Origin: Pseudomonadota bacterium
GTDB lineage: Bacteria; Pseudomonadota; Gammaproteobacteria; Burkholderiales; REEB80
NCBI GenBank assembly: GCA_028873515.1
Contig: JAGWIG010000028.1
Location: 1-34,254, forward strand
Length of the DNA: 34,254 nucleotides
Reading direction: 5' to 3'
Shown: piece by piece, positions 1 through 25,523 of the stretch
Numbering within the stretch: the first letter of the stretch is position 1
Layout of the letters: each line of letters opens with the position of its first letter
Notes under the pieces: generated by a model
Databases searched by the model: none
Told to the model about the DNA's origin: nothing
The model's input: only the letters and a program-made list of their open reading frames with translations
Position numbers and translations under genes: made by a program

Positions 1-159
1 AGGATCACAAGAATCAGGGTAGGGGCGGAAGGCTCCGAACCGGTTGCACAAACGCAATCTACGCCTGGGGAGACCGTGGTAAGCCGCAAGGGTGGCAACA
101 CTCCTGCGCTCTGGTCGTCGAGCCAGGAAACCCCCGCTACAAGACCGCAAGGGCTTTAG
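1..159 (+). CDS. tnpB: TnpB C-terminal tail (partial, 5' end outside window)
   Basis: Frame 1 is open from the first base to TAG at 157-159 and encodes a 52-residue tail beginning RITRIRVGAEGSEPV. It is collinear with the last residues of the TnpB at 23954-25399, and the stop falls at the same place in the terminal hairpin. It corresponds to the basic, low-complexity extension after the zinc finger and RuvC-III motif, so no catalytic residue is visible here. Substitutions relative to copy 2 keep the frame open, so the gene diverged while still translatable. Confidence 0.8.
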   Translation, partial: RITRIRVGAEGSEPVAQTQSTPGETVVSRKGGNTPALWSSSQETPATRPQGL

Positions 160-175
160 CGGTGGGAGACTTCAT
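1..175 (+). mobile_element. Right end of an IS200/IS605-family element (copy 1, continues left of the window)
   Basis: The first 175 bases match 25241-25415, the right end of the intact IS200/IS605 element in this window, at 156 of 175 positions by my count. Identity stops exactly after the pentamer TTCAT (171-175), which defines the right boundary. The part seen holds the tnpB 3' end and the terminal hairpin (131-166). The rest of this copy lies outside the window, so whether it is intact cannot be judged. Confidence 0.9.
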
Positions 176-668
176 ACATGGCCACTTCACCGATGAGCGA
201 ATCGACGGCATCCGCAGCGGACGTACGCCACTGGCTGCCGATGAACACGTCTTTCTGTTCGCTGACACGCCGCGTTTCGGGGAGTGTTGTTACGCTGAGG
301 TTGAGCTTTCTGTGGTGTCGGACGCCGACTTGATGAGCGCGGCCTATAGCGCGAATGAACTGGCGAAGCAACTTCTTCAGGGGAGTGAATTCGATACTGC
401 GAATGCTTTTGCGATCAGCCACGTTTTCGCCGCCACTGAAAATCTCGCGGAGTGGAAGTCACTCAACAGCACGAGCGCCCTGATCGACCTCGATGCCATC
501 GTCTGTGAAGTGCGCGAAATGAATATGTCCTGGCAAAGCAAGGACGCCATCGTTGCGGCATTACAAACCGGGCAGAATGCCGGATTTGCCTGCAAATGGG
601 CGCTTCATGAGTTCAAGTTCAACGAGTCGGGCTTTCTGATTGCGGGTCAACATCAGGCAAGGGCATGA
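162..668 (+). CDS. Hypothetical protein, probably 5'-truncated by the IS insertion
   Basis: This frame of 168 codons can only start at GTG 162, inside the IS right end; the next in-frame ATG is about codon 58. The IS boundary at 175 therefore probably removed the natural N-terminus and now supplies the first residues. I recognise no family. The protein is acidic and mostly soluble in appearance, with no membrane segment or clear motif. Its TGA overlaps the ATG of the next gene (ATGA at 665-668), so the two were an operon. Codon use resembles neighbouring element genes. The old promoter is presumably lost, unless the IS provides one. Confidence 0.5.
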   Translation: MGDFIHGHFTDERIDGIRSGRTPLAADEHVFLFADTPRFGECCYAEVELSVVSDADLMSAAYSANELAKQLLQGSEFDTANAFAISHVFAATENLAEWKSLNSTSALIDLDAIVCEVREMNMSWQSKDAIVAALQTGQNAGFACKWALHEFKFNESGFLIAGQHQARA

Positions 669-22906: not shown

Positions 22907-23398
22907 GGTCTCTCCTGTGCAACAAGAACCGTTGTTGAACGGATCCTGAAAAAAAGGCTGGGGTAGTCATCCTGTTTCACCATCCGGTCGGGCGGGGTGC
23001 CAAACTTTCATTGTGCCATTCTATCAGGCAGCAGGAAACAGGACTCCTGGAACGGGCCTGGAACTGCTGCCGTGTCTTCTGTTTTGCCTGGCAGTCCATA
23101 TCAAGGACTCTCCAATAAGTCCCGCTCATCCTGAAGCAGCAGGCATATGGTACGGCTAAGGATATGCATCCGGTTTCATTATACGCATTCAGGCGGGGTC
23201 AAGACGATATGGCTTTTGATCTAAATCAGGTGAAGGTCAAACTTTCCGGTTTCAAGCCAGCCTGCTGATTCTTGCTGGCTTCCAGAAGGCAGCTTCATGC
23301 GGGTTTCCAAGGAGTTTCGAAGCATTCAGGCCGGGTTGGGTCTTGTTTTTGGCTGTCTGGATCAGGGCGCTGGACAGGACGGGTTAACAGGAATTCAT
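22907..23398 (-). promoter_or_regulatory. Upstream region of pdhAB with -10 box and FNR-like site
   Basis: About 490 bases hold no protein gene. On the minus strand a perfect TATAAT lies at 23183-23178. Further upstream TTGATCTAAATCAG (23216-23229) matches the FNR/ANR consensus at nine of ten positions. The spacing (site centre about 51 bases before the inferred start) is not a standard FNR activator distance, so the role is uncertain. The left target site of the IS (TTCAT, 23394-23398) closes the region. Confidence 0.35.
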
Positions 23399-23461
23399 GA
23401 ACACCTGTCCGCGCATTCCCCTCTTAGGCGAGTTCCGAACCAGTCTTGCACCAGCAGGGGG

Positions 23462-23917
23462 TCAAGCGGACGGTTTGGTTTTTGACTTGGCTTTGGCCTT
23501 GCGTGCATGCTCTTCCGTTCCCTGGGCGTCCACATAAGCCCGCACCGTTTCAAGCGTAGCCCCGCCAACGCTGCCGACGAAATACGCCCGGTGCCAGAAC
23601 AGGGGCTTGCGGTAGAAGGCGGCAAAATGCTCCGCAAACCGGTTCCGGGTGCGCCGTGCGCTGGCGGTTTTGAGATTGTTAATCAGCACCGGAATGTCCA
23701 GTGCGGGGTGGATGTCGATCAGCAGATGCACATGATCCGGTTCGCCACCAAATTCAATCAGCCTGCAGCGCCATCCTTCGAGTATGTCGCCAAAGGCGGT
23801 TTCAAGATATTCCAGCAGTTCCGGTGTCCGTGTTTTGCGTCTATATTTCGTCACCAGGACGATATGCAGCTTAATGTTAAATACCGCGTGCGAACCGGAT
23901 TTATTAGCGTTGTCCAT
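23462..23917 (-). CDS. tnpA: IS200/IS605 transposase TnpA (Y1 HUH)
   Basis: A 151-residue single-strand transposase. The HUH motif is DHVHLL (H62 and H64), and the nucleophilic tyrosine is Y128 in LETVRAYVDAQG, followed by a basic tail. Length and motif spacing are those of active members, which cut and join the element ends as single strands during replication. The gene is read away from tnpB and ends about 60 bases from the left terminus. No frameshift, so probably active. Confidence 0.92.
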   Translation of the reverse strand: MDNANKSGSHAVFNIKLHIVLVTKYRRKTRTPELLEYLETAFGDILEGWRCRLIEFGGEPDHVHLLIDIHPALDIPVLINNLKTASARRTRNRFAEHFAAFYRKPLFWHRAYFVGSVGGATLETVRAYVDAQGTEEHARKAKAKSKTKPSA

Positions 23918-23953: not shown

Positions 23954-25399
23954 ATGCAGACTGGTCATAAATTTCGCTGTTATCCCACTGCTGCACAGGA
24001 ACAGACCCTGTTGCGGTGGATCGGCTGCCAGCGTTTCATCTACAACGCCAAGGTGCGCGAAGACCGGTATTTCCGCCGCTTTGCGCAGAAGTCTTTGCAG
24101 CACGCCGGGCAGGTTGCCCCGATAGACCAGCAGTACGCCCATTTCAAGACCGGACTCACGCCATACCTGTCCGAAGTGCCAGGTGCTGTGCTGCGCAATG
24201 GCGCAGTGCTGTGGAAGCAAGCCTGCAGCCGTTATTTCTCCAGGCTGGGCGGGCGTCCGGTCATGCACAGGAACCACGGCAGACAGGCCGTGTGGCTCAC
24301 ATCGGAAATGTTCAGGTTCGTGCCGGTCGTGGATGTAGGGACAGGTAAAATCACCGGACACCTGCTTCATATCGGTGGCAAGAAATTCCCCGTTGGCGTA
24401 CTGGCCTTTAAGGCGCACAAGGATTACAAGCTTCCCGCCTCGCTGCATATCAGCATTCACGCTGGTCGCTGGCATGTCTCGTTCAATCATGATGATGGCG
24501 TTCCCGAGCCAACCGACAAGGACACGACCGACTGGCTGATTCAGTTCGACGAAGCAGAATTGCGCAAAATGACTGCCGGGCTGGATCGGGGCGTAAATCT
24601 GCCGTTGGCCGGGAGCGATGATCAGCGATTTAATTTCTCGGAAGCCCAGAAGAAACGCCTGCTTGCCCAGGAACGTCACAAGAAACGCTGGCAACGCCGC
24701 CAGGCACGCCGCACCAGGGGTTCGGCAGGCTGGGTCAAGGCGAAGCGCCGTGTAGCGCGTTACCAGCGTTATGGTGCGGATGTGCGCCGGGATGTGGCCC
24801 ATCAGTCCAGCCACACGCTTGCCAGCGATCCGCGGTACAGGCTGTTCGTGTTCGAAGCCCTCAAGGTGCGGAACATGACGGCCAAGCCGAAACCGAAGCA
24901 GGACGGGCAAGGCCGCTGGGTCAGGAATGGCGCGGCCGCCAAATCCGGTCTTAACAAGTCCATTCTGGCTTCCACCTGGGGGCAGACAAAAACGTATCTG
25001 CAGTACAAGGCTCGCCGTCAGGGCAAGCTGGTTATCGACGTGCCCCCGTTCTATTCTTCGCAGGAATGTGCCCTATGCGGCCACGTTCACCAGGACAACC
25101 GGGTATCACAATCCGGATTCGTCTGCCTGAGCTGCGGGAACACCGACCATGCGGATCACAATGCGGCAAAGGTTATTGCCCTGCGCGGTGTCCGGCAGTT
25201 ATTGTCCGGGAAGGGTGTTCAGAAAGAATTGAGGCGGTGCAGGATCACAAGGAACAAGGTAGGGGCGGAAGGTTCCGAACCGGTTGCACAAACGCAATCT
25301 ACACCTGGGGAGACCAAGGTAAGCCGCAAGGGTGGCAACACCCCTGCGCACTGGTCGTCGAGCCAGGAAACCCCCACTACAACGCCAACAGGAGTTTAG
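23954..25399 (+). CDS. tnpB: TnpB RNA-guided nuclease
   Basis: A 481-residue protein. I start it at ATG 23954 (MQTGHKFRCYPTAAQ), the usual TnpB N-terminus; the frame is open further upstream across tnpA but not meaningfully. The RuvC residues are D211 (GLDRGVNLP), E301 (FEALKV) and D401 (HADHNAAK). The zinc ribbon is C372/C375/C391/C394. An N-terminal wedge/helical region precedes them. After D401 about 80 more residues form a basic low-complexity tail that overlaps the guide-RNA scaffold. TnpB cuts DNA matching its reRNA next to a motif equal to the insertion target, here expected to be TTCAT. All catalytic residues are intact. Confidence 0.92.
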   Translation: MQTGHKFRCYPTAAQEQTLLRWIGCQRFIYNAKVREDRYFRRFAQKSLQHAGQVAPIDQQYAHFKTGLTPYLSEVPGAVLRNGAVLWKQACSRYFSRLGGRPVMHRNHGRQAVWLTSEMFRFVPVVDVGTGKITGHLLHIGGKKFPVGVLAFKAHKDYKLPASLHISIHAGRWHVSFNHDDGVPEPTDKDTTDWLIQFDEAELRKMTAGLDRGVNLPLAGSDDQRFNFSEAQKKRLLAQERHKKRWQRRQARRTRGSAGWVKAKRRVARYQRYGADVRRDVAHQSSHTLASDPRYRLFVFEALKVRNMTAKPKPKQDGQGRWVRNGAAAKSGLNKSILASTWGQTKTYLQYKARRQGKLVIDVPPFYSSQECALCGHVHQDNRVSQSGFVCLSCGNTDHADHNAAKVIALRGVRQLLSGKGVQKELRRCRITRNKVGAEGSEPVAQTQSTPGETKVSRKGGNTPAHWSSSQETPTTTPTGV

Positions 25400-25435
25400 C
25401 AGGGGGAGACTTCATGAAGGTTAACCGTTAATTTT
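25241..25435 (+). ncRNA. Putative TnpB guide RNA (omega/reRNA), copy 2
   Basis: The scaffold covers the tnpB 3' end and right end, with the guide expected at about 25416-25435 (starts GAAGGTTAAC). The terminal hairpin pairs CCCCC 25371-25375 with GGGGG 25402-25406, CTA with TAG (the stop codon, 25397-25399), and AAC 25381-25383 with GTT 25394-25396. It also pairs CC with GG around AACA. Compared with copy 1, AAG/CTT has become AAC/GTT, a compensatory change. The 5' end is not determinable from sequence. Confidence 0.6.
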
Positions 25436-25523
25436 TGCGAGGAAATCCGTTTGTAAATTGTTTTATCCTTCCTGTTTAATTGAATTAAACTATTGCGATT
25501 CGTACCCATGCGGGAAATCCAGG

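Follow-up and report, generated by a model that had tools for sequence, protein, structure and literature searches.

In excerpts of PMC10097598 and PMC8612924, the omegaRNA (reRNA) that serves TnpB of ISDra2, from Deinococcus radiodurans, is a scaffold that overlaps the 3′ end of tnpB and the element's right end; it comprises stems 1-4, the last of them standing directly before the guide. Its cryo-EM structure shows a pseudoknot between UUC (-5 to -3) and an upstream GAA (-105 to -103), with the GAA of the foot left out of this pairing, and the C-terminal domain of the protein is disordered and dispensable for cutting (PMC10097598). In the excerpted text of Nety et al. 2023 (PMC10278001), the right-end hairpin lies in the omegaRNA, at most 10 nt from its 3′ end in almost all tested orthologs, and is the sole consistently conserved omegaRNA feature; covariance models are published there, and omegaRNAs of the Derived TnpB clade have two 5′ stem-loops and a 3′ one no more than 10 nt from the guide. 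The IS608 right palindrome IP-R with its G_R and C_R, as excerpts of PMC5934647 present it, is a subterminal hairpin that has a tetranucleotide guide at its foot and is followed on the 3′ side by a cleavage site. For the IS607 reRNA, the excerpted report (PMC10711439) gives a conserved pseudoknot between guide-flanking bases and the loop of stem-loop 1, reported to be required for activity. Related literature includes PMC8266576, PMC12803034 and PMC11701678; among the titles and abstract openings listed from a mainly open-access TnpB literature, we saw nothing on the present lineage or on covariation at -6 and -5.

The locus described here follows the ISDra2 plan. Its scaffold overlaps the tnpB 3′ end and the right end and folds into stems 1-4, stem 4 stands immediately before the predicted guide, and the terminus can pair with GAA of an upstream loop rather than with the foot; the UUUA tip of ISDra2 recurs in the hairpins called type B below. 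It differs from ISDra2 in size (modelled at 157 nt with a hairpin H2 of its own, against 116 nt), in its boundaries (right end TTCAT, and left site TGAA where ISDra2 has TTGAT) and in the partnership of -6 with the loop, which is a covarying canonical pair here but non-canonical in ISDra2 (-6G, -102U). The 3′ stem-loop close to the guide and the stem-loops 5′ of it are like those of Derived TnpB omegaRNAs, and the RuvC-III motif, HADHN by eye, resembles the NADXN of that clade. The IS608 layout of hairpin, foot and cleavage site is matched as well, with letters GAAA and TCAT, in roles assigned by analogy, where IS608 has GAAT and TCAA. The pseudoknot likewise recalls that of IS607, although IS607 belongs to another element family with other boundary rules.

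The window, the whole stretch of 34,254 nt analyzed here, is contig C55 (G000:C55:1-34254) of a 3.4-Mb draft genome in 275 contigs, and both of its right ends belong to one type of IS200/IS605 element (Table 1). Copy 2 is complete, with tnpA and tnpB divergent and their starts back to back. The tnpA product exceeds the family cut-offs of PF01797 and NF033573 and matches the IS608 TnpA structure 2a6m (E 2.2e-17); its alignment to 2ec2 spans a PDHVHL stretch, which we take to be the HUH motif. The tnpB product carries the RuvC and zinc-ribbon region (PF07282, PF01385), scores 195.4 bits against NF040570 guided_TnpB (cut-off 100) and matches the ISDra2 TnpB structures 8bf8 and 8h1j (E 5.5e-15); against the narrower family NF038281 IS200_TnpB it reaches 124.4, where the cut-off is 425. 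Copy 1 comprises the last 175 bases of the element, the contig start falling inside tnpB. The genome as a whole holds eight full right ends and two partial ones; contigs C172 and C13 also start inside tnpB, and C113 and C234 stop inside it, as expected where a repeat breaks the assembly. Rfam gave no match at gathering score across the window, and a permissive search (E up to 10) of 25150-25460 matched no family. A search for TnpB in viral contigs produced 12 stretches that fitted a pattern, none of which was confirmed.

Table 1. Coordinates of the two element copies in the window and of their proposed parts.
Feature	Position	Strand	Basis or remark
Copy 1, right end only (tnpB 3′ end and RE)	1-175	+	cut by contig start
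Copy 1 omegaRNA scaffold	19-175	+	R1 model match, 178 bits
Copy 1 stem 4, type A, GCAA tip	131-166	+	127-175 folds at -19.4 kcal/mol (RNA), -12.2 (DNA)
Copy 1 CTTCAT terminus: putative pseudoknot strand (-6 to -3) and right cleavage site	170-175	+	roles by analogy
Copy 1 predicted guide, flanking DNA	176-195	+	omegaRNA model; differs among aligned own-genome ends
TGAA at left boundary: likely target site C_L / TAM core	23398-23401	+	
Copy 2 left-end hairpin	23418-23461	+	arms from two allelic types
tnpA, Y1 (HUH) transposase	23462-23917	-	PF01797 5.7e-35; NF033573 118.9 bits
tnpB, RNA-guided nuclease, 481 aa, open	23954-25399	+	PF07282, PF12323, PF01385
Copy 2 omegaRNA scaffold, modelled 157 nt	25259-25415	+	R1, 162.8 bits; overlaps tnpB 3′ end
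Hairpin H1	25263-25275	+	pseudoknot loop GGAAG at 25267-25271
Stem 2, 5′ arm	25304-25308	+	covariation; pairs with 25363-25367
Stem 3b hairpin	25325-25348	+	
Stem 2, 3′ arm	25363-25367	+	covariation
GAAA at the foot of stem 4, probable right guide (G_R) for TnpA	25367-25370	+	analogy with IS608; columns G, A and A each conserved in 49 of 50 rows
Copy 2 stem 4, type C	25371-25406	+	25367-25415 folds at -14.9 (RNA), -8.8 (DNA)
Copy 2 CTTCAT terminus: pseudoknot strand (25410-25413) and putative right cleavage site	25410-25415	+	cleavage by analogy
Copy 2 predicted guide	25416-25435	+	flank unlike other copies

Element boundaries were drawn from repeated copies. Of the 21 left ends, from five genomes, that the alignment reaches at the first or second base, 20 open with TGAA, and the flanks that precede it differ; two further partial matches are excluded from this count. 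On the right, homology among copies stops at TTCAT (25411-25415). Both ends carry a subterminal hairpin. No empty site of copy 2 was seen, its right flank being unmatched in 59 other genomes, and the ends and TAM are hence placed by alignment alone. Under a rule derived from IS608, in which guide bases 1-2 pair with -3 and -4 of the cleavage site, a foot of CATT predicts a left end beginning TG, and the TG.. found here would agree with it. The left hairpin of copy 2 has the left arm of C3, C66 and C77 and the right arm of C130; because its arms come from different allelic types it is poorly paired, folding at -9.0 against -17.1 for C3 and -12.0 for C130. Copy 2, though its tnpB is open, may therefore be a poor TnpA substrate.

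The two right ends had been singled out in a first-pass annotation as about 89% identical, with changes that gather in the last hairpin and preserve its pairing. Aligned without gaps, 1-175 and 25241-25415 differ at 19 positions (89.1% identity), and 10 of the 19 do lie within the 36 nt of 131-166 (hypergeometric P = 0.001, for a region picked after the fact). The inner stem changes from AAG/CTT to AAC/GTT and the flanking A..G mismatch to G..A, just as described, and the tnpB stop is within the stem in both copies, as a TAG in the 3′ arm (157-159 and 25397-25399). The proposal that the outer stem keeps its pairing with other bases holds only in part: copy 2 has lost one pair and its hairpin is weaker. 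In register, the outer stem has one pair broken by G136>A and another by G161>A; T163>G lets the strand slip, so that 9 bp with a bulged T become 8 bp with a 1x2 internal loop. Clean compensation between the two copies thus comes down to a single pair, G143-C154 to C25383-G25394, plus one mirrored mismatch. Both 49-nt ends (127-175 and 25367-25415) fold better than their shuffles (z -3.3 and -3.3 as RNA, -4.2 and -4.4 as DNA), but copy 2 is weaker than copy 1 by 4.5 kcal/mol as RNA and 3.4 as DNA, and ranks 42nd (RNA) and 38th (DNA) in stability among 50 copies. With an untidy outer stem and a weaker second hairpin, two copies by themselves are thin evidence, and at this level the observation was confirmed only in part.

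Relatives were therefore gathered by DNA, protein and covariance-model searches. Model R1 matched in 13 of 399 genomes of the order and 6 of 369 drawn from the class (E 0.001), and R2 in 9 of 32 genomes of family f42 and 3 of 398 drawn from the phylum (E 1e-5); these draws overlap, and the own genome is in all of them except f42. The distribution is patchy across lineages. Relatives on Ferrovum, Methylotenera, Polaromonas and Hydrogenophaga records point to Betaproteobacteria, and the element is also found on a gammaproteobacterial metagenome-assembled genome (L042) and a Geoalkalibacter plasmid (L132). From 34 candidate ends, L062, L010, L064, L063 (partial) and L038 were left out to give 29, and exclusion of L020, L023 and L014 gave the 26 rows of alignment A1 (MAFFT). 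Model searches then took 67 and later 80 loci, picked to avoid repeats of one place. Alignment A2 has 57 distinct rows; A3 has 71, of which 50 were used once 15 under 60 bits and 6 identical ones had been removed; a structure-blind alignment has 48, the 50 less the 5′-cut L116 and L119. A2 and A3 were fitted to the structure, pseudoknot excluded. Among the low-scoring rows set aside, L111 has T at -3 and L130 has a different end.

Across these copies the letters of stem 4 vary widely and can still pair, as in CGCTAGAACGCCTTCAGGCGTTTAGCG (L024), CAACTAAAACATTGCCAAATGTTTAGTTG (L144) and CATCTACAACTTTGTTGTTTAGATG (L100). In A1, 93.3% of cells are paired against 87.0% in shuffles, none of 500 shuffles being as high; 22 of 52 pairs show change on both sides where shuffles give 10.8 (again 0 of 500 reach it), and pairing falls to 29-45% when the partner is displaced by one to three columns. 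The figures for A2 are 91.0% against 75.7% paired, with change on both sides in 42 of 49 pairs against 29.3. Covariation was scored with our own script, similar to R-scape, which uses a G-statistic with average-product correction; its null alignments preserve the tree and each branch's substitutions. In the 34-row test, one stem-2 pair passed among all pairs (E 0.0175) and the stem-4 pair highlighted by the first-pass annotation had E 0.06. With the 48-row structure-blind alignment and a tree-aware null of 1000 alignments, that stem-4 pair (A1 columns 134-148) ranked first of 11,781 with the lowest E that the test can give, 0.0005; a pair of stem 2 also passed among all pairs (E 0.032), and no pair outside the structure fell below E 0.05. 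The 15 best pairs included 11 within the proposed structure and 4 outside it. In the two-set test, 11 of 52 proposed pairs had E < 0.05, four of them in stem 4 and one in the pseudoknot, values that are flattered because the structure pairs were placed in part by eye using those very sequences; the all-pairs E-values are independent of how those pairs were drawn. Stems 1 and 3a had no passing pair in the 48 rows. In A3 the stem-4 pair was again first, 14 of the 15 best pairs were in the structure and three passed among all pairs. Rows were added after the 34-row test, so the later tests are not independent of it. The fourth-best pair in A3, columns 95 and 214, lies beside stem 2 and would stack on it; its common forms are not Watson-Crick, and either a lineage effect or non-canonical pairing may lie behind the signal.

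On a tree built from the rest of the scaffold, without stem 4, the highlighted pair changed on both sides 9 times, broke once and never changed on one side only. Since the copies are mosaic, some of the double changes may be hairpins that moved, which would inflate the number of independent changes. Pairs of stem 4 are broken in some copies (C181, C13, L065), and the hairpin of L109 does not fold as stem 4. Selection on an RNA or single-stranded DNA structure, beyond the protein tail, is nevertheless what the covariation across copies supports, and the first-pass reading was mainly right. The finding is real, and it is ordinary for stem 4 of a TnpB omegaRNA.

The best explanation, to which we give a probability of about 0.92, is that the hairpin is stem 4 in the 3′ part of the omegaRNA of an IS200/IS605 TnpB, its pairs kept as RNA, and that as single-stranded DNA it is also the right-end signal of TnpA. 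By analogy with homologues, the scaffold would be read as RNA from the tnpB mRNA and fold into stems 1-4 plus a pseudoknot that would join the transposon's final bases, CTTC, to the GGAAG loop some 140 nt upstream; TnpB would bind this scaffold and cut sites matching a guide drawn from flanking DNA, with stem 4 placed just before that guide. As single-stranded DNA, the hairpin with its GAAA foot and TTCAT end would form the right-end signal that TnpA recognizes and cuts. The second role of stem 4, as the right-end hairpin of the transposase, is probable by comparison with IS608. The letters would be free to change as long as pairs are kept, because the C-terminal tail of TnpB is expendable.

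Whether RNA is needed in this account depends on pairs that a terminal DNA hairpin does not contain. It is conceivable, though very unlikely, that only the single-stranded DNA hairpin matters, read by TnpA in its folded form during peel-and-paste transposition. Stem 4 stands where IS608 has its right-end palindrome, and the GAAA foot and TTCAT end fit the guide and cleavage layout in excerpts of PMC5934647; L060, which has lost most of tnpB, retains both ends; and the ratio of events leading to G-U to those leading to A-C is 13:12 in stem 4 and 68:24 in the remaining helices (Fisher p 0.05; on another tree 15:13 against 61:25, p 0.11), the direction expected of a DNA constraint. Stem 2, however, takes the forms CCTGG/CCAGG, CTTGG/CCAAG, CTAAG/CTTAG and CCAAG/CTTGG, covarying across 55 nt, and the loop and terminus covary across about 140 nt. 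At loop position 13 and terminus -6, 41 of 45 rows are paired (G-C 30, C-G 7, U-A 3, G-U 1, mismatch 4); in the 48-row test this pair ranked fifth overall, with an all-pairs E of 2.2 and a two-set E of 0.0098. Taken alone, the four pseudoknot pairs lie above every shuffle on 3 of 5 measures, and on the other two, pairs changed on both sides and further pair types, 157 and 167 of 500 shuffles reach the observed value. Moreover, the terminal GTC of L112 and L115 is matched by GAC in the loop, yet the foot is still GAA (GGAAAG, GGGAAG). Loop and terminus covariation is unexplained by a terminal DNA hairpin, and so argues that the scaffold is selected as RNA; we know of no TnpA contact at stem 2 or at the loop/terminus pseudoknot. 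The alternative of RNA or single-stranded DNA left standing by the first-pass annotation is thus settled in part, the long-range covariation pointing to a folded RNA, with stem 4 probably serving the transposase as well. A mutational origin, in which template switching within a quasi-palindrome copies one arm onto the other and selection plays no part, could account for the absence of one-sided intermediates when C-G becomes G-C at the key pair. Yet many copies retain imperfections that such copying would iron out, namely the A.G mismatch, a bulged 3′-arm T or C and an unpaired 5′-arm base. Covariation is also seen in stem 2 and the pseudoknot, neither of which belongs to the arms of this hairpin, and we regard a mutational origin as still more improbable than a signal confined to DNA. 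Least credible is that coding constraint on the TnpB tail accounts for the pattern. The stop TAG stands at -19 in 32 of the 44 rows examined, and stem-4 length changes in threes in L031 (+3), L042 (-3) and L043 (-6), though not in L007 (-1) or L100 and L101 (-4). Against this, tail residues vary freely among copies (PATRPQGL, PATTRLRA, PTTTPTGV, PATTSQGV), and 9 of 15 partners on the 3′ side lie in or after the stop. Both changes at the key pair are non-synonymous (AGA>ACG and CTT>GTT, with tails PATRPQGL and PTTTPTGV), which argues that the protein tail is not what is kept; the CTA/TAG pairs at mid-stem are nearly invariant, and stop and stem thus share their bases.

A different kind of objection is that the hairpins differ through recombinational exchange of modules and not through point changes in place, which is possible but on balance doubtful as the whole explanation. 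Among the eight own-genome right ends, 54 of 136 site pairs fail the four-gamete test and hairpin types A, B and C have no simple match to body types; the type B tip, CGCGTTTACGCG, recurs in five genomes (the own genome, G001, G220, G768 and G769), and the left hairpin of copy 2 is itself chimeric. Exchange between copies is likely part of the story. The type C hairpin of copy 2, however, was found in no other examined row, and exchange moves hairpins but does not create new pairing. Module exchange can be combined with the omegaRNA and TnpA reading of stem 4.

That reading is evolutionary support, independent of cryo-EM, for an ISDra2-type omegaRNA fold in a TnpB lineage that has no Rfam match. 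A more tentative extension, which we would not favor as it stands, is that the last six bases are used twice: -3 and -4 would be frozen by the foot as DNA and by the loop as RNA, -5 and -6 would track the loop only, and stem 4, under both constraints, would have fewer wobbles than the RNA-only stems and move between copies as a module. C at -3 and T at -4 are each present in 50 of 50 rows of 60 bits or more, as expected if each has two partners. If so, -6/-5 and -4/-3 would be positions where the nuclease and transposase roles could be split by mutation. Apart from the support for the fold and these candidate positions, the results agree with existing knowledge.

Several variant copies deserve mention on their own account. 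L112 and L115, the copies in G033 that hold both pseudoknot strands, form a sub-lineage in which AGTCAC replaces CTTCAT at the right end and is matched by a GGACT loop. L060/L100 (G199:C20:5496-5782) is a 287-bp derivative lacking most of tnpB; it has retained the left end and the omegaRNA scaffold, its stem 4 is changed yet paired, and it looks like a non-autonomous element carrying a guide RNA. In L038, L125 and L121, extra stretches, partly palindromic, lie in stem 4 or at its foot. Finally, a one-base deletion in the tip of L007 (G000:C172) and a two-base insertion at the foot of L097 (G220) each shift the tnpB frame past TAG, and in both the rest of the hairpin is kept.
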